Part shown: positions 9,602 to 32,340 of the stretch, in pieces
How the letters are laid out: each line of letters begins with the position of its first letter
Position numbering within the stretch: the stretch's first letter is position 1
NCBI GenBank assembly: GCA_003223325.1
Contig: QHYS01000008.1
Span: 1-33,529 of the forward strand
Length of the DNA stretch: 33,529 nucleotides
Reading direction: 5' to 3'
Source of the DNA: Acidobacteriota bacterium
GTDB lineage: Bacteria > Acidobacteriota > Terriglobia > Acidiferrales > UBA7541
Made by a program: the position numbers and the translations under genes
The notes under the pieces: generated by a model
Told to the model about the DNA's origin: nothing
Database searches by the model: none
The model's input: the letters and a program-made list of their open reading frames with translations, nothing else

Positions 9602-12600
9602 TCAGGGGATCCGCGCTAGCGTAGCGCTGGGTGTTGGCTCCGCTTCCAAATGACTGGTCACGAAGGTCCCCTCACAGCTGAGCTCTGACTTCAGCGATTT
9701 TTCCCGCCAAACTGCGTAAATGGCTGGATATACGAGCAGTTCGAGAACGAATGACGTGCAGATCCCACCTACCATCGGCGCCGCGATGCGTTTCATGACT
9801 TCAGAGCCGGTTCCGGTTGACCACAAAATCGGCACCAGTCCAATCGTCACGGTCGCAAAAGTCATGAATTTCGGACGCAAGCGTTTGGCGGCGCCTTCCA
9901 CGATCGCTTCGTAAAGATGCTCTTTCGCAAACCAGTGGTGCTCTCGTCTCGCCTTCTCGTAAGCAAGATCCAGATACAGAAGCATGAACACGCCCGTTTC
10001 GGCATCAATGCCAAATAAGGCGATAATGCCCACCCACACAGCAACACTCATGCTATAACCGAGCGCGATAACCGCCCAGATCGCACCCACGATGGAGAAG
10101 GGCACAGCCAGGATGATAATCAGTACTTTCGTCATCGAACGCGTGTTGCAGTACAGCAAGAACAGGATCGTCGCCAGCGTAACGGGAACGACCAGCATCA
10201 GCCGCTCACGCACCCGTTGCGCCGATTCATATTGCCCGGTCCAAACGACAGAATATCTCGTAGGGAGACGCAGGCGTTCCTCGAGCTCCTTTTTCGCCTG
10301 TGTCACATAGTCGCCGTATGATCGTCCTGCCACATCAACAAAAACGTACCCAGTCCGCAATCCATTCTCATTGCGAATCATGGCTGGCCCGTTGAGGGTG
10401 CGGATTGTGGCCAACTGCGACAATGAAATCTGTTTCTCGCCCGCGGAGATGAGTACTTTGCTGAGTGAATCGAGGTCCGAGCGGAAATCACGGAGATACC
10501 GTACAGAGATGGGATACCGTTCGCGGCCTTCAAACATCGTACTTACGTTGTCTCCGCCGACGGCAGTCGAAAGCGCATTCTGGGCTTCTTCCACGGAGAG
10601 GCCGTAGCGGGCCAGAGCCTCACGATCCCATGCCACATCCAGAAAATACCCGTCACCCGTTCTCTCGGAGAAAACTCCACGGGTTCCCGGCACGCTTTTC
10701 AGTACTTGCTCCGCTTGATGGCCAATCTCCTGTATCCTGTTTAAGTCGTCCCCCTGAATTTTCAGTCCAATCGGCGTTTGGATACCGGTTGTCAGCATCT
10801 CGATGCGGCCGCGGATCGGCATCGTCCATGCATTCGAAAATCCCGGAATCCTCAGAGAATTATTCATCTCTGCGATCAATTCCTGCTCGCTGATGTGATC
10901 CGGGGTAAAACGTCGCAGCACCGGGAGCAAAGCATTTGGCGCCCACGACGAATACCAGGTTTCCCGCTTCCGCCATTCAGATTGTGGCTTCAGGACGATG
11001 ATCGTTTCCAACATGGAAAGTGGCGCTGGATCGGTGGCGCTGTCAGAACGCCCCGCCTTCCCCAAGACATGGTCTACTTCAGGAAAATTCTTCAGAATCC
11101 GATTGGCCACTTGCAGCACATGTTGTGACTCCTCTATAGAAACCCCGGGCATGGTAGTCGGCATGTACAGAAGCGACCCTTCTTCAAGAGGCGGCATGAA
11201 CTCGGAGCTCAGCGTCCAGAACATCGGGATCGTTAACACAACAGTGGCGATCGCGCCGGCAATCACCGTTCTTTTCCAGCGCAGGCTCCAACGGACCACC
11301 GGATCGTACAGCCGTATCAATGGCCCGGTGATGGGCTGCTCTTCTTCTGACAGAATCTTGCCACCCAAGATACTCGCCAGCAGGCGAGAGAATTTTCCAG
11401 ATTGGCTCTTCGGAACAGAACGGCCGCGCACAAGCGTCACGAGCAGCGCAGGACCCAACGTGATGGAAAGCACAGCTGCCGCAAGCATCGCAAAATTCTT
11501 GGTGTAAGCAAGGGGCCGGAACAGCTTCCCTTCCTGTCCTGGAAGAACCATTACAGGCAGAAAAGCCACTCCAATTACGAGCAGCGCAAAAAATGTAGGG
11601 CCGGCTACTTCCCGGACGGATTCGAGGACGACACCATTGTACGAGAAAGGTTGCTCGGACCGCTCGTATTGTTCCAGTTTCTTTTGCACCTGCTCGACCA
11701 CAATGATGGCCGCATCCACCAGTGCGCCACAAGCAATCGCGATGCCGGCGAGCGACATGATGTTGATGCTCACTCCGAAGTACCGCAGGGGTATGAACGC
11801 CAGCAGCGTTGCTACCGGAATCGTAACGACGGGAAGTACCGCACTCGGGGCGTGCCACAGAAACAGCAAGATCACAATAACGACCGTAAGAATGACCTCA
11901 ATCAGAGTGGACCGCGCGTTCCTGATTGCACGCCGGATCAACTCCGAACGGTCGTACACTGGCACAATCTTGACGCCCTCCGGCAGGCTGGACTCGATCT
12001 CCTTGATCCTCGCCTTCACACGGTCGATCACCTCCAGCGCGTTGTTCCCATCGCGCATGATGATGATCCCGGACACCACTTCGCCCGTCCCATCCAAGTC
12101 CGTCGCGCCGCGTCTAATGTCCGGGCCCATAACAACGCTTCCAACATCCTTGACTCGAATAGGCGTGCCGTTGGCAGAGCTGACAATAGTTTCTTCAATG
12201 TCCGCCGGAGACTGGAAGTACCCGCGTCCCCGAATCATGTATTCCGCCCCGCCGAATTCGATCAAACGCGCGCTGGTTTCGCTATTGCCGCCCTTTACCG
12301 CCTCGACCACCCGCGAGAGGGGGGTTCCATACGAACGCAGGCGGTTCGGATCCACGTTAATCTGATACTGCGGCGAAAATCCGCCCAGGGACGCCACTTC
12401 CGCAACACCTGGAACAGCCTTCAAATAATATTTGAGATACCAGTCTTGAAAGGATCGCAGGTCTCCTAAGCTGTGCTTTCCAGATTCGTCGCGTAGCGTA
12501 TATTGAAATACCCACCCGAGCGCAGTAGCATCCGGTCCCATTTCGACCTTAACATCCTGTGGAAGTCTCGCCGTAACGCCCGACAGGTACTCGAGGGTTC

Positions 12601-12922
12601 TCGATCGCGCCCAATAAATATCGGTGTCGTCCTCGAAGATTACGTAAACATAGGAGTATCCAAAATCCGAGATGCCCCGCACCGTCTTTACCCGGGGCGC
12701 ACCGGTCATGGTCGACACAATGGGATAGGTAACCTGATCCTCGATAATGTCCGGGCTACGGTCCCACCGCGAAAGAATAATGACTTGCTTCTCCCCCAGA
12801 TCCGGGATGGCATCCAACGGCAGATTCGCCATGGACCAGGCGCCCCAGAGGCAACCCGCAAACACCAGGGCGAACACCAGGAATTTGTTCTTTACCGAAA
12901 AGGTGATGATACGATTGATCAA
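9602..12922 (-). CDS. cusA: CusA-like heavy-metal efflux RND transporter (copy 1)
   Basis: This 1106-residue protein is full length for the HME-RND family. It contains DFGYSYVYVIFEDDTDIYWA, the TM4 Asp motif ALVDAAIIVVE and the TM10 motif GIDAETGV, which carry the proton-relay acids. The three Met of the E. coli CusA Cu(I)/Ag(I) site (M573, M623, M672) are matched by LLYMPTT, PLSMLET and RIEMLTTG, so Cu(I)/Ag(I) is the likely substrate rather than Co/Zn/Cd. The start is a TTG overlapping the cusB1 stop by four bases (TTGA), so the pump and adaptor are translationally coupled. The outer-membrane partner CusC is absent. Confidence 0.93.
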   Translation of the reverse strand: MINRIITFSVKNKFLVFALVFAGCLWGAWSMANLPLDAIPDLGEKQVIILSRWDRSPDIIEDQVTYPIVSTMTGAPRVKTVRGISDFGYSYVYVIFEDDTDIYWARSRTLEYLSGVTARLPQDVKVEMGPDATALGWVFQYTLRDESGKHSLGDLRSFQDWYLKYYLKAVPGVAEVASLGGFSPQYQINVDPNRLRSYGTPLSRVVEAVKGGNSETSARLIEFGGAEYMIRGRGYFQSPADIEETIVSSANGTPIRVKDVGSVVMGPDIRRGATDLDGTGEVVSGIIIMRDGNNALEVIDRVKARIKEIESSLPEGVKIVPVYDRSELIRRAIRNARSTLIEVILTVVIVILLFLWHAPSAVLPVVTIPVATLLAFIPLRYFGVSINIMSLAGIAIACGALVDAAIIVVEQVQKKLEQYERSEQPFSYNGVVLESVREVAGPTFFALLVIGVAFLPVMVLPGQEGKLFRPLAYTKNFAMLAAAVLSITLGPALLVTLVRGRSVPKSQSGKFSRLLASILGGKILSEEEQPITGPLIRLYDPVVRWSLRWKRTVIAGAIATVVLTIPMFWTLSSEFMPPLEEGSLLYMPTTMPGVSIEESQHVLQVANRILKNFPEVDHVLGKAGRSDSATDPAPLSMLETIIVLKPQSEWRKRETWYSSWAPNALLPVLRRFTPDHISEQELIAEMNNSLRIPGFSNAWTMPIRGRIEMLTTGIQTPIGLKIQGDDLNRIQEIGHQAEQVLKSVPGTRGVFSERTGDGYFLDVAWDREALARYGLSVEEAQNALSTAVGGDNVSTMFEGRERYPISVRYLRDFRSDLDSLSKVLISAGEKQISLSQLATIRTLNGPAMIRNENGLRTGYVFVDVAGRSYGDYVTQAKKELEERLRLPTRYSVVWTGQYESAQRVRERLMLVVPVTLATILFLLYCNTRSMTKVLIIILAVPFSIVGAIWAVIALGYSMSVAVWVGIIALFGIDAETGVFMLLYLDLAYEKARREHHWFAKEHLYEAIVEGAAKRLRPKFMTFATVTIGLVPILWSTGTGSEVMKRIAAPMVGGICTSFVLELLVYPAIYAVWREKSLKSELSCEGTFVTSHLEAEPTPSATLARIP

Positions 12923-17287: not shown

Positions 17288-18556
17288 TCATTTCGCCGTC
17301 GGCTTCGCAAAGAGAGAGTCGTCCAACTCCGGGTTCACCACAACGCTCTCGATGGTCATCTTGTGCGATTGCCTGACCCCTTGCACACTAGTCTCGAGAA
17401 CATAGGGGACCATCAGGCCGTTCACGGTCTTGTAATCGCGATAATAAATCTCCACCGGCCGCATCCTGCCATCCATGCGCCGCGGAACGCCTTCGATTTT
17501 GACCTCCAAGAACGTCTCCGTATCCACCCAAAGGTGGCGGACTTGCCCATCTTTCGCGGTGAGCTTCAGTTTATAGGCATCGTGCCCTTCCACCGTCTCC
17601 ACTCCCTCAAGATCCACTTGGATACTTTTGGTGGCATGATCCACCAGCGGTCCGTCAAGGTCGTATTCCATAGAAGCCGCCTTCAATTCATCGGCGGAGA
17701 ATGGTTCCACGTCTCGCCGTCCAAGGTATGGCCGCAGCTTCCAGCCGTTCGCCCCGTCATAGACTTGCACGGCCTTGTCATTGGCGAACTCGATCTCCAC
17801 CCGCGTTTTGCGTGGCCGCTTCATTTCCATAAAAAATGGCAGTTGTACATTCTCTTTTCCCCCGGCATCCAGCTTACCGGAGTAGGAAATCGTGTGGACC
17901 GCGAGCCACGCTTGTAGCCCGCCCCGGGCCGACACATTCCGGTCGGCGATTTCCGTCGCCGATAAGTTGGCCGGAGCCGTTTGGCTTTCCACGCTCACTG
18001 CCACGGAGCCGGCAAATAGTAAGAAGATGCAATAGAGCAAGGTTCTTTTCAACATTAATGGTTCACTCCGATAGTGGTGTGGGCTTTGCCCGCGTTTGGA
18101 TCCAGCCTCGCCACCCGTCAGCGCTGATTGTGGGGCTTTTTCTTCGAAGCCAAACAACCACTGATTAAAATCATTCCGCATATAGCGCCCCCGATATTCC
18201 TTAATCCGTCCAGCGCTACTAAGACGCTTCAGTGTTTGATGTACCCGAGCGCCCGGATTGGAATGGCGATCTATGTCGTAACCGTAGAGTCTCAAATTCT
18301 CCATGACTTCAAGCGGAGCGAGCGGCTGACCCGCACCATTTATCAAACCCTCGATAGCCTCTCCCATGGCCAGTCGCTCTTGCATATCCGTTTGGATAAC
18401 GTCCGCCTTTTCGGTCTCGTGGAGGTTTACTGCGAGGTTTCTCAACAGCCCTTGCAACCGATAGACTTCAAAATTCCATTCGTTCTGCTGTTGGACAGCA
18501 AGGGCAAGCTGCTGCCGCGTCTCTTCCATTGTTGCCTTGAGATGGTCAGTGGTCAT
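17288..18556 (-). CDS. Winged-helix protein joined in frame to a LolA-like secreted protein
   Basis: One open frame of 422 codons. Residues 1-60 are a coiled coil (EETRQQLALAVQQQNEWNFE). Residues 65-132 look like a winged helix (LAPLEVMENLRLYGYDIDRH, VHQTLKRLSSAGRIKEYRGR). Residues 136-167 are low complexity. Residues 168-195 are a signal peptide or membrane helix (MLKRTLLYCIFLLFAGSVAV). Residues 196-422 are a LolA-like domain (RGGLQAWLAVHTISYSGKLD, YDGANGWKLRPYLGRRDVEP, VEIYYRDYKTVNGLMVPYVL). The wHTH start at 18556 has AAGGA. The LolA-like part has its own ATG at 18055, so two genes may have merged by loss of a stop. If translated whole, it would be a membrane-spanning regulator of ToxR type. 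The LolA-like part is paralogous to the gene at 30729-31625. Confidence 0.75.
   Translation of the reverse strand: MTTDHLKATMEETRQQLALAVQQQNEWNFEVYRLQGLLRNLAVNLHETEKADVIQTDMQERLAMGEAIEGLINGAGQPLAPLEVMENLRLYGYDIDRHSNPGARVHQTLKRLSSAGRIKEYRGRYMRNDFNQWLFGFEEKAPQSALTGGEAGSKRGQSPHHYRSEPLMLKRTLLYCIFLLFAGSVAVSVESQTAPANLSATEIADRNVSARGGLQAWLAVHTISYSGKLDAGGKENVQLPFFMEMKRPRKTRVEIEFANDKAVQVYDGANGWKLRPYLGRRDVEPFSADELKAASMEYDLDGPLVDHATKSIQVDLEGVETVEGHDAYKLKLTAKDGQVRHLWVDTETFLEVKIEGVPRRMDGRMRPVEIYYRDYKTVNGLMVPYVLETSVQGVRQSHKMTIESVVVNPELDDSLFAKPTAK
18053..18069 (-). promoter_or_regulatory. Internal start site of the LolA-like part
   Basis: On the minus strand GGAG (18066-18069) is followed, ten bases later, by the ATG at 18055 that begins the signal peptide MLKRTLLYCIF. 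This supports independent translation of a 255-residue secreted LolA-like protein from within the larger open frame. Confidence 0.55.
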
Positions 18557-18631
18557 TGTTCGCCATCCTTGTGTAGTAACTCGAAAGGGCCGAAAAGCGC
18601 GTCGCGCTACTCAGGTCCAGTCCTGATAGAT

Positions 18632-19189
18632 TCACGGGGACGGGAACGTAGATCGACCCGTAACGACCAGCCCTTCTGCTCGAAACGTACCGATCATCAC
18701 CGTCACATGACTTCCGGCCTTTACTTGCCGGCCTTTGTTGGAAAAGGCCATCCAGTATTCGCGGCCGTTTTGAGGCGTGGCTACTTGGCGTAATTGCCCA
18801 ACCTGTTCCAACTCCGGGATTTGGAGCGCAAGGCCATTCTTTTCGTCGATGAGATACGGAGTGGCCTTCTTGTCATTCAGTATCTTGGCCTTTTCGGCAT
18901 CGACCACGCGATAGCTGAATCGGATCAAGGAGCCCGAGGCGGTTTCCCTGACAACGATGTCGTCGATACCCCAACGCCGCCTGCAGTATTCGGCCTGTCG
19001 TTGACTTGGGACAGAGAGCGGAACAACCTTCGAAACCGGAGAGGCCGCAGGCGTCGAAAGGGTCGGCTGAGAATCCCCGATCCTGTCTTGGTCCTGAGCA
19101 GCCTGGGTTAGAGCACAAGAAACACAAATGCTGCTCACGAGTAACCCCGCGAGCAGCATCGTCTGATATGGTTGTGGCGTGCTAACCAT
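18632..19189 (-). CDS. Small secreted protein of a duplicated family (copy 1)
   Basis: This 185-residue protein has a signal sequence (TMLLAGLLVSSICVSCALTQ). The body contains RRWGIDDIVVRETASGSLIR, FSYRVVDAEKAKILNDKKAT, PELEQVGQLRQVATP, YWMAFSNKGRQVKAGSHVTV and FRAEGLVV. The same motifs in the same order are in the gene at 31758-32267. No known domain is recognised; the pattern suggests a beta-sandwich exposed outside the cytoplasm. It precedes a LolA-like gene in both copies, so the two proteins probably act together in the envelope. No clear ribosome site precedes the ATG at 19189. Confidence 0.65.
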   Translation of the reverse strand: MVSTPQPYQTMLLAGLLVSSICVSCALTQAAQDQDRIGDSQPTLSTPAASPVSKVVPLSVPSQRQAEYCRRRWGIDDIVVRETASGSLIRFSYRVVDAEKAKILNDKKATPYLIDEKNGLALQIPELEQVGQLRQVATPQNGREYWMAFSNKGRQVKAGSHVTVMIGTFRAEGLVVTGRSTFPSP

Positions 19190-19440
19190 TTGCTATGGAT
19201 TCGGATACGACGGCGGCAGGTTAGCTCCGGAGGCCCCCGTATGGTTGTAGTTACCGAGTGGCGTTTGCGAAGTATTCGTTGTATGAGCCAAGGTCGCCTT
19301 GTGCGACGGTGCCAACGAGGGTCGGGTCCGCCGCTAATCCCCTTCCTGTGACGGCCTGCAACACTCTGCGTCCATCGCCGACTGCAGTCTTTACTGCTTA
19401 CCGCCAGAAACCACTTGCGTGCAGCGGTCCGGGAGATTAA
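19190..19440 (-). pseudogene. Degraded C-terminus of an unrecognised protein
   Basis: On the minus strand a frame reading VLQAVTGRGLAADPTLVGTV then AQGDLGSYNEYFANAT runs to a stop. One base out of frame it continues as LGNYNHTGASGANLPPSYPN plus P and a stop at about 19193, right against the next gene. The two parts make sensible protein when joined near 19260, so this is probably the end of a real gene carrying a single-base frameshift and a degraded upstream part. I cannot name the family. It occupies the same place relative to the small secreted protein as the surface-protein gene in the other cluster. Confidence 0.4.
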
Positions 19441-19769
19441 GGGCGCGCCTCTACTTGCCTCGTTGCGATAGAACAAATAGCACTATGTAGATAACGATAA
19501 TTTACTAGTAATTAACATGAGTAAGACTCGAGGCATAAATGGACAAATAATTTGCGATTATCACGAAACGGGGTTGAGGTTTACAGCGGATCGCTTGTAT
19601 GGATTGGATGTAAACCGCTTTACAACGCGGCGCATAACTTTACACTCTGGCAGGATTGAGTGTCAGCGAAGCTCGGTTTGCTCGACTTTAGTCTGCAAAT
19701 CATCCTGACCTGTCCGAACCCGAAGCGCACGCATGAGGGGATAAACCTGTGAGCTGTCTTCGGATGTAG
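19441..19769. other. AT-rich spacer between remnants
   Basis: About 330 bases. 19480-19560 is AT-rich. An imperfect palindrome (gtaaaccgctttac, about 19609-19622) is present. A 63-codon plus-strand frame (19517-19708) has no recognisable product and no ribosome site. Confidence 0.3.
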
Positions 19770-20850: not shown

Positions 20851-22266
20851 ATGATCCAAATGCGGCGGATGACCCTGGTAGTGGCGGTGGTTGCAGCGAT
20901 CGCTGCGTCATTCGGACTCGGTCGGTACTACCCCCATTCACAAACAGACAGCAAGACTGGGCGACGCGTAATCTACTACGTGGACCCCATGCATCCCGCA
21001 TACAAATCGGACAAGCCCGGCATCGCCCCCGACTGCGGAATGCCGCTGGTACCCGTCTACTCCGACGAGGTTGGATATAAACCGTCATCTTCGAACCTGG
21101 CGCAATTGTCCGCAGGAGCGGTCAGCATTGATGTTGTGACGCAGGGATTACTGGGGATCCGGACCGCACCGGCAGAAAAGGCCGGCGCCAATCGCAGCGT
21201 CCGCGTAGTAGGCCGCGTAGTTGCGGAAGACACGCGCGTATACAGCGTCAACTCTGGTGTGGACGTGTTCATTCGAGAGACTTTCGAGGATTCGGTTGGA
21301 ACCGAAGTCAAGAAGGATCAAAAGCTGGCGAGCTACTATGCGCCAGACTTTTTGGCGGCAGCTTCAGGTTTCCTGGCAGCGACCGAGCGTGTGCCGGGCG
21401 CCGTGGGCAAGGACGGGGCACGGTTTTCGCCGAACTTTCCGGGCACGATTGCCAAAGAAGGGGTACGAAGCATTCAGGGATACACCGATCACTTGCGCAA
21501 TCTCGGCATGAGCGACGAGCAGATCAAACGAATCGCCGATAGCCGCGAGCTCCCCCAGAGTATTGATGTCGTCGCGCCGGCCGACGGATTTATTCTCGCT
21601 CGGAATATTTCACCCGGACAACATGTTGACCACATGATGGAGTTTTACCGTATCGCGGATTTGAGCCGCGTGTGGGTGGTCGCCGAAGTTTTCGAACAGG
21701 AGGCGGCGAACCTGCACTCAGGCGGCATGGCTCAGGTCATCTTGCGCGAGGAAGGTCGCCGATTGCCAGCGCATTTGACTGACAGCCTGCCGCAATCAGA
21801 ACCAGGTGGTGGTACCGTCAAGCTTCGCTTAGAAGTTGAAAATCCCAAATTCGTCTTGCGGCCCAATATGTTGGTTGACGTCGAGCTTCCAGTCCGTCTA
21901 CCACCTGCGGTCACCGTACCGTTGGACGCACTGGTCGATTCCGGCGAGAACACGCGTGTTTACGTCGAGCATGGCGAAGGCGTTTTCGAGCCTCGCGAGG
22001 TCGAAGCGGGATGGCGTAGTGGCGACCGGGTCGAAATCCTGCACGGAGTTCAGCCAGGTGAGCGCGTCGTTGTCGCCGCCACCTTTCTGGTCGACTCGGA
22101 GAGTCGGTTGAGGTCACCAAACGCAGCAATGTCCACGCCGAATCCTGCAAGACTATCTGAGACAATGCCCAAACAAATGGCCGACGACTCCGCTGAGCAC
22201 AAAAAGGCCTTCCAAAACGATCCAGTCGGCTCAATCAGCAAGAACCAAGGCGCTGGCAATGATTAG
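20851..22266 (+). CDS. cusB: CusB-like periplasmic adaptor with metal-binding N-terminus (copy 2)
   Basis: This 471-residue membrane-fusion protein is paralogous to the adaptor of the first operon. A signal anchor (LVVAVVAAIAASFGLGRY) is followed by YYVDPMHPAYKSDKPG and APDCGMPLVPVY (metal-binding module), then VVAEDTRVYSVNSGVDVFIR, LRNLGMSDEQIKRIADSREL and a beta-barrel region. It is slightly longer than copy 1, with an insert around VGKDGARFSPNFPGTIAKEG. Its C-terminal tail is hydrophilic and Met/His-containing. GAGAGGGGA suits an ATG at 20860 as well as the one at 20851. It overlaps cusA2 by eight bases. Confidence 0.9.
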   Translation: MIQMRRMTLVVAVVAAIAASFGLGRYYPHSQTDSKTGRRVIYYVDPMHPAYKSDKPGIAPDCGMPLVPVYSDEVGYKPSSSNLAQLSAGAVSIDVVTQGLLGIRTAPAEKAGANRSVRVVGRVVAEDTRVYSVNSGVDVFIRETFEDSVGTEVKKDQKLASYYAPDFLAAASGFLAATERVPGAVGKDGARFSPNFPGTIAKEGVRSIQGYTDHLRNLGMSDEQIKRIADSRELPQSIDVVAPADGFILARNISPGQHVDHMMEFYRIADLSRVWVVAEVFEQEAANLHSGGMAQVILREEGRRLPAHLTDSLPQSEPGGGTVKLRLEVENPKFVLRPNMLVDVELPVRLPPAVTVPLDALVDSGENTRVYVEHGEGVFEPREVEAGWRSGDRVEILHGVQPGERVVVAATFLVDSESRLRSPNAAMSTPNPARLSETMPKQMADDSAEHKKAFQNDPVGSISKNQGAGND

Positions 22267-25200
22267 TAGGATTATTGATTATTCCGTAAAGCACAAACTA
22301 GCGATATTGGCCCTGATCGCTATAGCGTGCATCGCCGGCTGGTGGGCGATGATCACGATGCCTCTCGATGCCACCCCCGACTTGAGTGACACACAGGTCA
22401 TCATCTTTTCGCATTGGGATAAGAGCCCGGACATTGTCGAAGACCAGGTCACATATCCTATTGTGACTGCCATGCTGGGGGCGCCGAAGGTTAAGACGGT
22501 GCGGGGGTTCTCCGACTTCGGCTACTCCTACGTCTACGTTATTTTTGAGGATGGGACCGATCTTTACTGGGCCCGCTCTCGAACGATGGAGTATCTCTCG
22601 AGCGTTCTTCCGCGCCTGCCGGAGGGGGTTAAAACCGAGCTAGGCCCTGATGCTAGTTCCCTTGGATGGGTTTTTCAATATGCTCTGGTGGATAAGTCAG
22701 GCAAGCACAGCCTCGCTGAGCTTCGTTCGTATCAAGATTGGAACCTGCGCTACTACCTCCAGTCGGTCCCGGGTGTAGCCGAGGTCGCCCCGATTGGTGG
22801 TTACACGCGACAATACCAGGTGGACCTCGACCCAAATCGTCTGCGGGCGTATGGCATCTCGGTTAGTCGCGTGGTCGAAGCGGTACGCAGCGGCAACAAC
22901 GAATCCAGTGGACGACTGCTTGAATTTGGCGGCACGGAGTACATGGTTCGTGGCCGTGGCTATGCGCACTCGCTCGAGGATTTTGAAAATATCCCGCTGA
23001 GCGTCACCGACACAGGTTCGCAAATCCGAATCAAAGACGTCGGCCAAGTGGTTATGGGGCCTGACTTGCGCCGCGGCCTTGCCGATATGGATGGGAAGGG
23101 CGAAGTCGTTTCGGGTATCGTCGTCATGCGCAACGGCGAGAACGCGCTGGACGTAATTAATCGGGTGAAAGCGAAAATCAAAGAGATCGAGCCGGGGTTT
23201 CCGGATGGCGTCAAAGTCGTTCCGATTTATGACCGGTCCGAGCTGATCTACAACACGATTAGCAATGTGAGGGGCACGATCATTGAGGTTGTAATCACGG
23301 TCGTTCTCATCATCCTGGTTTTCTTACGGCATTTCCCCAGCGCGTCCATCCCGATTGCAACCATGCCGATCGCGGTGTTGCTCGCGTTCATTCCGTTCCG
23401 CTTGATGGGGATGAGCGCCAATATCATGTCCTTGGCGGGATTGGCGATCGCATTCAGCGAGCTTGTTGACGCTTCGATCGTGGTCGTCGAACAAACTCAC
23501 AAGAAACTCGAACTTTGGCAAGAGGCGGGGCGCAAGGGTGACTGCCGCGAAGTCGTGGTCGGTGCGATCAAGGAAGTCGCTGGGCCAACGTTCTTCACAT
23601 TGCTGGTGATCGCCGTCTCCTTTCTGCCAGTTCTCACGTTGCAGGCGCAAGAAGGCCGGATGTTCAGGCCGCTGGCCTATACCAAGACGCTGACCATGGT
23701 TGTCGCCGCCTTCCTGGCGATCACGCTTGATCCGGCGTTGCGTCTGCTGCTGACACGTGTCGAGGGCTTCGACTTTCAGCCAAAGTGGCTGTGCCGCGTT
23801 TTTAATGCCGTGCTGATCGGCGAAGTGAGGCCCGAGGAATCCAGCTTCGTCAGCCGGCGACTGATGCGCGTTTACGAGCCCGTTGTCCGATGGACGCTGC
23901 GCCGGAAATGGCTCGTCCTCGGCGCTGCCGTGGCATTAATGATAGTCACTGTGCCGGTTTTCTACCATTTGGGATCAGAGTCCATGCCGCCGCTGGATGA
24001 AGGCGCGATTTTGTACATGCCCACGACGCTGCCCGGGATCTCCATCAGCCAGGCGGAGCAGTTACTTCAAGCCAGCGACCACATTATTCGTCAATTCCCA
24101 GAAGTCGACCGCGTCCTGGGCAAAGCTGGGCGCGCGGAAACTGCCACCGATCCCGCCCCCCTCTCGATGCTGGAGACGGTAATCATCCTGAAGCCACGGT
24201 CTTCTTGGCGTCGCGTCGGTACTTGGTATTCATCGTGGGCCCCGGAATGGGCCAAGGGAATCTTCCGTCACGTTACACCCGACACGATTTCGACCGAAGA
24301 ACTGGTCAGCCAGATGAACTCTGCGCTGAAGCTTCCCGGAGTCACCAACTCTTGGACGATGCCAATCCGAGGGCGCATCGACATGCTGTCCACCGGCATT
24401 CGCACGCCGGTGGGGCTGAAGATCGCGGGCGCGGATTTGAAGCAAGTCCAGGAAATCAGCTCCGAAGTCGAAACTGAATTGAAGAAAGCAAAAGGGACAC
24501 GCGCTGTGCTCGCCGAGCGCACGGCCGGTGGTTACTTCCTCGACCTGCAATGGGACCGGGAACAGTTGGCACGTTATGGCATCAGTGTTGACGATGCACA
24601 GAGGGTAGTCGCAAACGCGATCGGGGGCGACAACGTCAGCACTGTCGTTCTCGGTCGCGAGCGTTATCGCGTAAACGTACGCTATCAGCGTGATTTCCGC
24701 AGCGACATGGCGGCGCTCGGCCGGATCCCCGTCCCGGCACCCGGTCAGCGACAATTGCCATTGAGCGATCTGGCGCAAATCAACGCCGCGACCGGGCCAA
24801 CCATGATCCGCGATGAAAACGGCTTGCTCACGGGATACGTTTATGTGGACATTGCCGGCCGCGATCTTGAAAGCTACATCACGGAAGCGAACGAACTCCT
24901 GCGTAACGACCTGAAACTGCCCCCAGGCTACTCCATTTCCTGGAGTGGGCAGTATGAAACGATGCAGCGGACCAAGGAGCGCCTGAAATTGATGGTTCCG
25001 ATCACGCTCGTTCTGATTTGCATGCTTCTGTACTTCAACACCGGGTCCATGGCCAAGACCATGATTGTCTTGCTGGCGGTGCCCTTTTCAGCGGTGGGCG
25101 CGATCTGGTTTCTCTACGCAGTCGGCTACAACATGAGCGTCGCCGTGTGGGTGGGACTGATTGCCCTGCTCGGAATTGATGCCGAGACAGGAGTTTTCAT

Positions 25201-25591
25201 GCTGCTCTACCTCGACTTGGCCTACGAGGAGGCCAAGCTGAATGGCCGACTGCAAAGCCTCGGCGACCTCCGCGAAGCCATCGTTCATGGCGCAGCCAAG
25301 CGCCTGCGCCCAAAGTTCATGACGTTCGCCACCACCTGCATCGGATTATTTCCCGTCATGTGGGCGACCGGAACCGGTTCCCACGTGATGAAGCGGATCG
25401 CCGCCCCAATGGTCGGCGGCATCTTCACCTCCTTCCTTCTTGAGTTGCTGGTGTACCCGGCGATCTACGAAGTCTGGCGATGGAATACCGCAGTTAAGAA
25501 GCTGCAAAAACCCAGCGAATACGCAGAGAAATCCCTAAGAGGATTGCAACTCATTCCTCACTTACCAGCCGAGAATCCCACCGGCGACTAG
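22259..25591 (+). CDS. cusA: CusA-like heavy-metal efflux RND transporter (copy 2)
   Basis: This 1110-residue protein is full length. The methionine triad of E. coli CusA is kept (ILYMPTT, PLSMLET, RIDMLSTG), as is the TM10 motif GIDAETGV. The TM4 motif reads AFSELVDASIVVVE, with the key Asp present but the usual Gly-Ala before it replaced by Ser-Glu. It should export Cu(I)/Ag(I) from the periplasm with CusB2 and an outer-membrane channel encoded elsewhere. Both pumps diverge from the middle segment, so the operons form an inverted pair. Sequence divergence between copies is clearly large, so this is not a recent duplication. Confidence 0.93.
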   Translation: MISRIIDYSVKHKLAILALIAIACIAGWWAMITMPLDATPDLSDTQVIIFSHWDKSPDIVEDQVTYPIVTAMLGAPKVKTVRGFSDFGYSYVYVIFEDGTDLYWARSRTMEYLSSVLPRLPEGVKTELGPDASSLGWVFQYALVDKSGKHSLAELRSYQDWNLRYYLQSVPGVAEVAPIGGYTRQYQVDLDPNRLRAYGISVSRVVEAVRSGNNESSGRLLEFGGTEYMVRGRGYAHSLEDFENIPLSVTDTGSQIRIKDVGQVVMGPDLRRGLADMDGKGEVVSGIVVMRNGENALDVINRVKAKIKEIEPGFPDGVKVVPIYDRSELIYNTISNVRGTIIEVVITVVLIILVFLRHFPSASIPIATMPIAVLLAFIPFRLMGMSANIMSLAGLAIAFSELVDASIVVVEQTHKKLELWQEAGRKGDCREVVVGAIKEVAGPTFFTLLVIAVSFLPVLTLQAQEGRMFRPLAYTKTLTMVVAAFLAITLDPALRLLLTRVEGFDFQPKWLCRVFNAVLIGEVRPEESSFVSRRLMRVYEPVVRWTLRRKWLVLGAAVALMIVTVPVFYHLGSESMPPLDEGAILYMPTTLPGISISQAEQLLQASDHIIRQFPEVDRVLGKAGRAETATDPAPLSMLETVIILKPRSSWRRVGTWYSSWAPEWAKGIFRHVTPDTISTEELVSQMNSALKLPGVTNSWTMPIRGRIDMLSTGIRTPVGLKIAGADLKQVQEISSEVETELKKAKGTRAVLAERTAGGYFLDLQWDREQLARYGISVDDAQRVVANAIGGDNVSTVVLGRERYRVNVRYQRDFRSDMAALGRIPVPAPGQRQLPLSDLAQINAATGPTMIRDENGLLTGYVYVDIAGRDLESYITEANELLRNDLKLPPGYSISWSGQYETMQRTKERLKLMVPITLVLICMLLYFNTGSMAKTMIVLLAVPFSAVGAIWFLYAVGYNMSVAVWVGLIALLGIDAETGVFMLLYLDLAYEEAKLNGRLQSLGDLREAIVHGAAKRLRPKFMTFATTCIGLFPVMWATGTGSHVMKRIAAPMVGGIFTSFLLELLVYPAIYEVWRWNTAVKKLQKPSEYAEKSLRGLQLIPHLPAENPTGD

Positions 25592-27399: not shown

Positions 27400-29140
27400 T
27401 CAAGATTCCACAGCTGGTGCGTCTGGATCAGAAAATCCCGTCAACTCCAGCGTGCGTTCGTCGCGAAACTGAGCTCCGCTTGGATGACGGCGACTCTGGA
27501 TATCCATCACGACTTGCCGGACCTCCGGAGCTTCCACGGCCGCGACCGGAATCTGCCACGGCGCTCCTGGCACCACTTGCGTGGCTGGAATGGTTTTACG
27601 CTGAATCAAGTGCCGCACCACGGTGGCACTCACTCCCAACCGCCCGGCAGCTTGCTCGAGTGTGAGGCTGTCCGCCGTGACACGACTCGCATCGTAGGCG
27701 GGCAGTTGATGGTAGTGCCGCAGCTTGCGCACCCTCACTTCGCTCCAGCCGTTGCCTGCACCGGTTCGCATCCCTAAACGATTCAGGGTGGAAGCGATCT
27801 GCTCGTCGCTTAATTGATCCGCCATCTGTCGCACCACTTCCACCGCCTCCAGCTTCGTGCAATGACGATGCCGACCGACAGCGTTCTTCTTGACCCGCAA
27901 CTCCGAATGACGACCTCCGGCCCAGTGCGGGAGTAGGACAATCTCCTGTTTCTCCTTGTCTATGTCCGCGACAATCTCGCGGATCAAAATCCGCACAATC
28001 CGCTGCTTCAAACGCATGTCCGTCGAGGGAGCATTCCATACGGCCGGAAGATCCTGCGCCAGGCTCAACAGCACTTCCTTGGACGGAATCGAAACGGCCT
28101 GTGGGTCGCTCCCGAATGTCTGCAGCTTCTTCTCCAAATCTCGTACGTTCTGCAAAGCCACATTCCAGCGAGCCTCCAGTTCTGCGGCGACTAACCGTTG
28201 CTCCGGATCGACCGCTTCGTAGCGCCGCTCCGCCAGTCGGGCTTCGTAGCGCGCCTGCTCCACCTCCATCTCGGACGCGCGTCGACGTGCTTCTCGCTGT
28301 TGCCTCAACTGATCGGCCGCTTGCAACGCCGCCTCGACGGCGTTGCCTCCGATGGCTTCGAGCACCTCTTTTGCGACCGCCTCGTCTGGACGCCAACTCC
28401 CGAAGGAAATACACCGACAATCCTCACGCGCATTCGCTTGTGCATCGCGGCAGCAGTAGCGTCCTTGCATATGGCGTCTTCCGTATTCCACGCGCAGCAT
28501 CCGACCGCACTGCCGACATCGCAACAGCCCGGCGAGCAACGCGCGTCCTCCCCGCGCCGCCTTTGGCTCCATGTGCGATTTCATGTGAGCGTTGGCCGCA
28601 ATCATCGCTTGGTTCTTCTCGTATTGCTCCCAGGAAATGTACCTAGCATGATGATCGCGAATCAACACCATCCATTCGGTGCGTGGCTTGCAATGCCCTT
28701 TGGTCTTGTGTGCCTTCCCTTCCACGATTTGCGTTCGCGCTTCCGTCTTGCCGAACGCGTACGCCCCCGCGTACAGAGGATTCGTCAGTATCGCCCAGAT
28801 GGTGTCATACAGGGGCAGCTTCCACACCAGACGGCGCTCGCCTCGCCCGGAAGGAATAGCCGGCAAGGCGATCTTCTCGCGGCGGAACCACAACGTCACT
28901 TGCCGAACACTGCCAAGCTCAGTGAACTTGTTGAAGACCAGATCTATGCTGTCTTGGATCCGGCGATCCGGGTCCATCTCCATCTTGCCGTTCTTGCTCC
29001 AGCAGAGGCCCACGGGAAGATAAAACTGCAGTTCGCCCCGCCGGGCCTTTTGGCGGATGGCTTCGAGCGATCGCTGCCGCAGCAGACTCAGTTCAAACGT
29101 CGCCATCTCTCCTTTCATGCCCAAGAGCAAACGGGGGCGC
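27400..29140 (-). pseudogene. Large serine recombinase lacking its catalytic domain
   Basis: The frame starts inside the family at RLLLGMKGEMATFELSLLRQ, directly after the catalytic resolvase domain, and continues through the recombinase domain (LGSVRQVTLWFRREKIALPA, ILTNPLYAGAYAFGKTEART), a zinc ribbon (LLRCRQCGRMLRVEYGRRHM...CC), a coiled coil and C-terminal helix-turn-helix domains (LTLEQAAGRLGVSATVVRHL). About 580 residues remain. The N-terminal part of roughly 120 residues with the nucleophilic Ser is gone. It is replaced by the reverse end of an IS630 fragment joined at about 29131-29141. The first 20 residues of the longer open frame (from 29190) are IS630 sequence in the wrong frame. 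It is catalytically dead. Confidence 0.85.
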
Positions 29141-29677
29141 CCAAGTCCGGACCACCAGGGGAGCCAATAGAAAGCCGCTTTCATCGGCAAAAACTATGTA
29201 GCCGCGCGGCGTTTTTTTTACCCGGGGCCAGACTTTTTTCTTCCAGCGCTGAATGGCCTGCTCATCGCGTTCTAAAGCGCGCCTTTCAGGTTTTTGTGGT
29301 GTCCAGTCGAGCCGATGGAGGAGTTTGCCAGCGGTATTGTAATGGCAGGGCACGTGGAAGGTCTTTTCAATCACTTCCGCGACTCGCTTCGTCGTCCATA
29401 CTTCCGTGCGGTAGCCATTGGCTAGGGCTCCGCGGAGCAAGATGCGGACCAGCCGTTTCTCTTGCCGGCGGGTGAGTCTTCTCGGGCGGCCCGGAGAAAA
29501 TCGCACCTTGAGGGCATCGGCGCCGTGTCGTCGCCACGCATTCCGCCACCGCATCACGGAACTGGCCGCACACCTGATGCGTCGAGCCACTTCGTTCAGG
29601 GACAATTCCGCGAGAAGAAGTTTCAGCGCACGCCTGCGCCGGTCGGACAGCAAGTCGGCCGAACCCTTGGGTCGCAC
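29131..29677 (-). mobile_element. IS630-family transposase, 3'-truncated
   Basis: From the GTG at 29677 the protein has the IS630 helix-turn-helix region (LSLNEVARRIRCAASSVMRW, FSPGRPRRLTRRQEKRLVRI), the linker VWTTKRVAEVIEKTFHVPCH and the first catalytic motif FADESGFLLAPLVVRTWAP. It then runs into serine-recombinase DNA. The second and third acidic residues are lost, so it is inactive. It lies between the recombinase remnant and the truncated third cusB. Confidence 0.85.
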
Positions 29678-30728: not shown

Positions 30729-31625
30729 TTAATTGGCCTTCGCTACGACTCCGGAGTCCGGTTTTGAAAACAGCGATTCATCGAACTTGGGATTCACTAC
30801 GATTTTGTCGATCATGATTTTCTCCGGCGGAACGGCAGGATCCTTAAACCCCAGCTTCGTTTGCGCCACCGGGAGAACTCTCGTCTCCAGAACATACGGA
30901 ATCTGTAGTCCATTTAACGGCCGGTAATCGCGGTAGTACACTTCCACCGGATGGTATTCGCCATCGAGCCGTCTGGGCTGGCCTTCGATTTTCGTTTCCA
31001 AGAAGGACTGCGCGTCAATCCAGACATGAATCGACTGCCCGTTATTCATCGTCAGTTTAAGCTTATAGGTATCGCGGTCTTCGACCTTTTCCATGCCGAC
31101 CAGCTCGACCTTGGTGCCCTTGGCCGCGTAATCGACCAGAAAACCATCGAGATCTGCTTGCATGGATGCCGCTTTTATTTCGTCAGTCGTATAAGGCTCG
31201 ACCACCCTGCGGTTCAGGAACGGCCGCAACTTCCACCCGTTGGCGCCGTCAAACACCTGGATTGCCGTCTGACCGTTGAACTGTAGCTCAAACCGCATTT
31301 TGCGGGGGCGCTTCAGCTCCATCACAAACGGCAGTTGAGCCTCCTCGGCCGGCCGGGAAGGGAGCGACTGTCTACTGGCCTTCTGGTCTGGAATTGGAAC
31401 TGGAACCGCAGCCCGCCGATTCCCTCCGGCACCAAGTTTCCCAGCCAACGAGATCGTCTGGACCGCCCGCCACGCCTGCAACCCGCCTCGGGCCTCAATG
31501 TTCTTGTCCACGATAGCGGCAGCGGAAAGATTGGTCCCCCTTGGGGTATCCCCTGCCGCGAAGAGTGAAATGGCAAGTGCCAGGGATGCGCATACTACGA
31601 AGACTACCAGGGACTTTCGGATCAT
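30729..31625 (-). CDS. LolA-like secreted protein (copy 2)
   Basis: This 298-residue protein has a signal peptide (SLVVFVVCASLALAISLFAA) and a LolA/LolB-like beta-sheet domain: ARGGLQAWRAVQTISLAGKL, ELKRPRKMRFELQFNGQTAI, FDGANGWKLRPFLNRRVVEP and VEVYYRDYRPLNGLQIPYVL. It aligns motif by motif with the C-terminal part of the 422-codon frame at 17288-18556. It has no winged-helix part, and it carries an extra Pro/Arg-rich insert of about 25 residues (around residues 68-94). Family members carry lipid-linked molecules across the periplasm; the cargo here is unknown. It follows a member of the small secreted family, as in the other cluster. Confidence 0.75.
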   Translation of the reverse strand: MIRKSLVVFVVCASLALAISLFAAGDTPRGTNLSAAAIVDKNIEARGGLQAWRAVQTISLAGKLGAGGNRRAAVPVPIPDQKASRQSLPSRPAEEAQLPFVMELKRPRKMRFELQFNGQTAIQVFDGANGWKLRPFLNRRVVEPYTTDEIKAASMQADLDGFLVDYAAKGTKVELVGMEKVEDRDTYKLKLTMNNGQSIHVWIDAQSFLETKIEGQPRRLDGEYHPVEVYYRDYRPLNGLQIPYVLETRVLPVAQTKLGFKDPAVPPEKIMIDKIVVNPKFDESLFSKPDSGVVAKAN

Positions 31626-31757
31626 TTATGCGCCTCGCTGGGATCTTTTTGATATTACGACCTACAGATGATAATGCCAGCCCGATTTCCAGTCTTTGCT
31701 CCACGTCAATGTTCAGGCGGGCCTATATGTTGGCTACGAATTTGGGGAAAGCGAACG

Positions 31758-32267
31758 CTATTCCACCACGAGTCCATTGGCACGAAACTTCCCAATCACG
31801 ACATTAACCCGATCTCCACGCTTCACGTGCCTACCGCTGTTCGAGAAAGCCATCCAGTAGGACACGCCCGCCTTAGGCGTCGCGCTCTGGCGCAATTGCC
31901 CGACCTGCTCGAGTGCCGGGACCACTAGACTAACCCCGGCCTGCGGGTCGATCAAGGAAGGCTCGTCCTTCTTATCGTTGAGTGCCTTGGCTTTGTCCGC
32001 GTCTAACACGTGGTAGCTAAATCGAATCATCTCGCCCGACTCCGCCCACTTAACGCTGAGCGCCTCAATTCCCCAGATGAGTTTGTAATATGTACCGGCT
32101 CGTGCCGCGAACCGATCTGGCTTATAGCGGGATGAAGCGGCAGTCACTGAAGGCTTCGCGGCCGGGGCAGCGGATTGGGACCCAGCGGGTAAAACTAGAA
32201 TGCTGCTGGCGAGAACCCCTACCAGCAGCATCGACGTTGTTTTCAAGATCACGTTGCGGTCAATCAT
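31758..32267 (-). CDS. Small secreted protein of a duplicated family (copy 2)
   Basis: The best start is ATG 32267, with AAAAGGA just upstream, giving 169 residues; the longer frame to 32318 runs through a strong hairpin. There is a signal peptide (TTSMLLVGVLASSILVLPAG) and a body with KLIWGIEALSVKWAESGEMI, RFSYHVLDADKAKALNDKKD, PALEQVGQLRQSATP, YWMAFSNSGRHVKRGDRVNV and FRANGLVVE. It is clearly paralogous to the gene at 18632-19189. The function is unknown. It lies 132 bases before the LolA-like gene on the same strand. Confidence 0.7.
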   Translation of the reverse strand: MIDRNVILKTTSMLLVGVLASSILVLPAGSQSAAPAAKPSVTAASSRYKPDRFAARAGTYYKLIWGIEALSVKWAESGEMIRFSYHVLDADKAKALNDKKDEPSLIDPQAGVSLVVPALEQVGQLRQSATPKAGVSYWMAFSNSGRHVKRGDRVNVVIGKFRANGLVVE

Positions 32268-32308
32268 TTTTTCCTTTTCCCCGTCCCGTAGTGTCTGTTC
32301 GCCGAACG

Positions 32309-32340
32309 GGGCGGGCATCCAAAGATTTGGATGCCCGCCC
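32309..32340. terminator. Perfect 15-base hairpin
   Basis: gggcgggcatccaaa (32309-32323) and tttggatgcccgccc (32326-32340) are exact reverse complements with a 2-base gap. The structure lies 18 bases after the stop of the surface-protein gene and about 40 bases before the start of the small secreted gene, both on the minus strand. No T-run follows, so it may be a terminator, an RNA-stability hairpin or an attenuator. Confidence 0.6.

Follow-up and report, generated by a model that had tools for sequence, protein, structure and literature searches.

A single reading frame between two sets of metal pumps

The window analysed here is a stretch of 33,529 nucleotides from a draft genome of 6.1 Mb (377 contigs); the close relatives identified for it in the named collection belong to the Acidobacteria gp2 MAGs (Acidobacteriota). 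On its minus strand lies a reading frame of 422 codons (17288 to 18556, counted from an ATG) without any internal stop; from stop to stop, the frame extends over 440 residues. The original prediction had stated that a winged-helix part and a LolA-like part share this frame, that an ATG preceded by GGAG lies inside it, that another LolA-like copy in the window lacks the winged helix, and that copper-type pumps are encoded close by. These observations hold: CusA/CzcA-type permeases with CusB-like adaptors are encoded on both sides of the frame, at 9602 to 12922 (minus strand) and 22259 to 25591 (plus strand), and the other elements are found among the following features:

17288 to 18057, minus strand: gene for a LolA-like (PF17131), probably secreted protein of 255 amino acids, defined by Pfam and by orthologs of 255 to 260 amino acids that share an equivalent start methionine; dN/dS about 0.2
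18058 to 18075, minus strand: junction that represents the former LolA leader (ATCGGAGTGAACCATTA; alignment A4), with an extra T at 18059 to 18060 relative to the sister leader
18077 to 18556, minus strand: coiled-coil/winged-helix-like coding part, residues 1 to 160, defined by dN/dS and family alignment A3; constrained to about residue 134
18076 to 18620, minus strand: inserted unit of about 545 bp with the coiled-coil/winged-helix gene, delimited by the ends of homology to G003:C3 and C543 and absent at the G003:C307, G030 and G056 sites
18632 to 19189, minus strand: gene B, 185 amino acids, no Pfam family; relatives normally have it next to and upstream of their LolA-like genes
19339 to 19663, minus strand: upstream region, repeat R, also present in G000:C188 and, in G003:C3, 28 bp ahead of the insert copy
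30729 to 31625, minus strand: LolA-like paralogue that lacks the winged helix and follows a paralogue of gene B (31758 to 32318)

The C-terminal part of the 422-residue frame (residues 309 to 418) matches PF17131 (LolA_like) in Pfam with an E value of 1.8e-9 and a score of 38 bits, above the curated cut-off of 30. A hydrophobic segment at about residues 171 to 191 (19-residue hydropathy 1.92), preceded by basic residues (MLKR), corresponds to the putative signal peptide of the LolA-like orthologs. The N-terminal 160 residues are predicted to be helical and rich in coiled coil, and the order of the helices fits, with low confidence, a coiled coil combined with a helix-turn-helix. Relatives of this part weakly match the winged helix-turn-helix models HTH_69, MarR_2 and HARE-HTH, and a profile search of the PDB returned coiled-coil matches as well as non-significant Fur-type winged helices. 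Since the N-terminal part has no significant Pfam family (and none in NCBIfam), we only infer the label winged helix from the helix order and these weak matches. The mean pLDDT of the predicted structure is 37 for the whole chain and 52 for the N-terminal part.

Several other elements of the neighbourhood deserve mention. Repeat R (about 325 bp) has further copies at G000:C188:17616-17941 (91%) and G003:C3:12318-12493 (77%); as these adjoin a histidine kinase/response regulator pair and multicopper-oxidase-like genes, the repeat may be a shared regulatory region. A large serine recombinase with an additional C-terminal HTH_17 domain is encoded at 27400 to 29190 (minus strand), and some of the relatives' loci have a gene for a long protein ahead of gene B. 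No RNA family of Rfam was detected anywhere in the window.

Empty sites in relatives and copies of the insert

Information on the history of the frame comes from relatives in which the LolA-like gene has no such extension. The orthologs in G003:C307 (79%), G030 (81%) and G056 (70%) begin at a methionine equivalent to the internal ATG at 18057 to 18055, and homology to them starts only at about residue 155 to 167 of the 422-residue frame. In the window, both this start codon and the upstream Shine-Dalgarno motif GGAG are retained, and the signal-like N terminus that follows is shared with the orthologs, as judged by eye and hydropathy. At all three sites gene B directly precedes the LolA-like gene, an in-frame TAA lies between the two, and there is no winged-helix gene. 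The genomes G135, G052, G062, G064 and G048 likewise have gene B ahead of a LolA-like gene and no winged-helix copy close by; this locus-by-locus check by single-sequence BLAST is blind to distant winged-helix relatives, which are covered by the family profile search described below. Thus, these loci and the pair at 30729 to 32318 in the window itself indicate that, at the level of gene order, the arrangement without the winged helix is the old one. Long N-terminal extensions on LolA-like genes elsewhere were also considered and rejected: the loci checked mostly have short open leaders of less than about 45 codons, and the single long one (L025, 216 codons) looks like a reading out of the gene.

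Sequence comparison shows that the inserted gene belongs to an Acidobacteriota family whose members are stand-alone proteins. With a profile made from 17 members (alignment A3) and the best nine candidates per genome scored, at least 62 places were found in 42 of the 399 relatives. Among the places scored, the other stop-to-stop frames measure 48 to 324 residues, and only the frame of the window reaches 440. The window (G000:C117:18137-18556) matches this profile with an E value of 6e-45, the query itself being part of the profile; the best of the independent pairwise matches has an E value of 3.8e-8 (to G246). The winged-helix part is 84 to 87% identical to the two copies in G003 and 18 to 26% identical to distant family members, in each case over the full length. 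Another LolA-like gene, in the distant genome G050, has a family member about 400 bp ahead of it; that family member ends in its own stop codon and is read in a different frame. The same fusion had been suggested as something to look for in related genomes, and the search (best nine candidates per genome) found no second in-frame fusion with a LolA-like part among the 399 relatives.

The two copies in G003 differ in their surroundings. In G003:C3, at another locus, the insert forms a free-standing open reading frame of 185 amino acids with a histidine kinase and a response regulator downstream, whereas the copy in G003:C543 follows a copy of gene B. None of the three copies, including that of the window, has its own stop codon up to the end of the insert: the frame in G003:C3 stops 25 codons into unrelated DNA, and in G003:C543 it is still open where the contig ends, 12 bases beyond the insert homology. 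The flanks of the insert resemble the LolA leader (left: ATCAGGAGTGAA in C543, degraded to ATCAGGACTG in the window; right: ATCGGAGTGAA), and ATC(A)GGAGTGAA is present on both sides, reminiscent of a target duplication that is short and imperfect. The plasmids and viral contigs searched contained no copies of the insert.

Two further observations concern G003. Its MAG holds both an empty (C307) and a filled (C543) site with gene B copies that are 93% identical, i.e. paralogues or two strains that were binned together. Moreover, the tail of the insert in C543 (L037:7975-8045) contains on the antisense strand a perfect 15-bp hairpin followed by T5 (-36 to -39 kcal/mol), which resembles an intrinsic terminator acting on transcription that runs towards the gene; it has decayed in the window (18100 to 18170) and in G003:C3.

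The junction and the selection acting on its two sides

The open frame depends on one base. The closest empty leader, that of G003:C307, reads CCATAATG where the window has CCATTAATG (full leaders: GGAGTAAACCATAATG and GGAGTGAACCATTAATG, respectively). On the sister leader, the frame of the inserted gene would run into ...CCA TAA TG with a stop codon that overlaps the start of the LolA-like gene (TAA/ATG), whereas the extra T of the window gives CCA TTA ATG and leaves the frame open. When the end of an open frame was placed at random in two empty-site leaders in a simulation, an open in-frame junction resulted in 6 to 10% of the cases. Selection for the fusion is therefore unnecessary, and the joining is unremarkable.

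The two parts of the frame are both under purifying selection. For codons 1 to 134 of the winged-helix part, dN/dS is about 0.27 in the comparison of the window with each G003 copy (dS 0.18 to 0.21, dN 0.05 to 0.06; Fisher P 0.0015 and 0.0006), on a branch that also spans the time before the insertion; for the LolA-like part, dN/dS among orthologs is 0.20 to 0.23. In the tail, codons 135 to 160, divergence is about threefold higher at synonymous and non-synonymous sites alike. We conclude that both proteins are constrained, unlike the stretch connecting them in the fused frame.

Origin of the joined frame and its possible product

In our view, two genes have probably been joined recently: on the line of descent that led to this genome, a coiled-coil/winged-helix gene of the stand-alone family was inserted between gene B and the LolA-like gene, as revealed by the empty sites. 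As the insert brings no stop codon, its frame would end in whatever DNA lies beyond, on the sister leader at the TAA, and the extra T may then have abolished this stop; the base difference is seen in the comparison, and this order of events is our proposal. It agrees with the simpler reading already offered in the original prediction, two genes whose separating stop was lost. Three observations speak against this explanation: the C543 insert also follows gene B with its frame open at the contig end, and a second genome might thus share the joining; the purifying selection on both halves implies that a joint product is at least tolerated; and the possible target duplication is imperfect and short. 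The C543 copy, together with the family member upstream of a LolA-like gene in G050, would also suit a winged-helix gene that was ancestral at this site and lost in the relatives. We regard this as highly improbable given at least eight loci with gene B and a LolA-like gene but no winged helix in the relatives, the paralogous pair in the window that lacks it as well, and the duplication-like flanks around the insert. A one-base assembly or consensus error would leave two separate, translationally coupled genes with a TAATG overlap. The dependence of the frame on a single T, the fragmented state of the draft genome and the fact that its nearest named relatives are metagenome assemblies make this conceivable; it is nevertheless unlikely, since there is no notable homopolymer at the site (ATTAATG) and the length of the leader differs among relatives anyway.

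The leading idea of the original prediction was a regulator of the ToxR/CadC type with a LolA-like sensor, i.e. a true membrane-bound one-component regulator with a cytoplasmic winged helix, one membrane helix and a periplasmic LolA-like domain that would transmit metal or lipid stress to the pump genes. The predicted domain order indeed resembles that of ToxR/CadC-type proteins (a cytoplasmic DNA-binding-type part, one hydrophobic segment, a periplasmic part), the charge pattern fits an N-in/C-out topology, the frame is open from 18556 to 17288, and the locus is flanked by CusA/CzcA pumps. Moreover, the N-terminal domain of MucB/RseB, which is similar to LolA/LolB, is able to bind lipid signals (PMC7400510), so that a LolA-like sensor is not an absurd idea; RseB/MucB, however, is a separate protein that acts on an anti-sigma factor, and its Pfam match to the window protein is not significant (E 0.06). 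A search of the literature collection used here found no LolA-type one-component regulator. In contrast to the ToxR/CadC-type proteins, whose N-terminal domain is an OmpR/PhoB-type winged helix (Trans_reg_C, PF00486) and which keep their architecture as one protein, the window protein has no match to this domain in Pfam even at E values up to 10, and its architecture occurs in one genome while in the 399 relatives (best nine candidates per genome scored) the parts are separate or absent. It also differs from other LolA_like proteins by 166 extra in-frame codons upstream, and from the members of family A3, with which its N-terminal part aligns over the full length, in that these stop well before 325 codons at the places scored. 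The fusion is not conserved: orthologous sites have a stop codon before the LolA-like gene and no adjoining winged helix, the linker is the least constrained region, and the LolA start and its ribosome-binding site have been kept. The stop codon and the absent winged-helix neighbour are the very observations that the original prediction had named as refuting its idea. An established regulator of this kind is thus very unlikely. A newborn one, in which the inserted gene captured the LolA-like sensor beside copper-type efflux pumps by way of a signal peptide turned into an anchor, has hardly any claim to be the correct reading either.

Returning to two recently joined genes, the retained Shine-Dalgarno sequence and start codon suggest that the normal secreted LolA-like protein is still made from 18057 and would be exported as in the relatives. 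Ribosomes that start at 18556 would necessarily produce the fused chain of 422 residues. In this chain, the former signal peptide might serve as a signal anchor in N-in/C-out orientation; alternatively, cleavage by signal peptidase would free the LolA-like protein, and the winged-helix part would keep a membrane tail. The latter part, which is under purifying selection, probably still binds nucleic acid. No evolved coupling of a sensor to a DNA-binding part is indicated, and the fusion is most likely a recent event, so far unique to one genome, rather than an evolved sensor-regulator. Were it functional, the fusion would add a new instance of a membrane-bound regulator arising by the in-frame insertion of a DNA-binding gene before a secreted protein. 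As it stands, the locus clearly illustrates how one insertion and a single base can create an annotated multidomain protein that resembles a new regulator and yet is private to a single genome.
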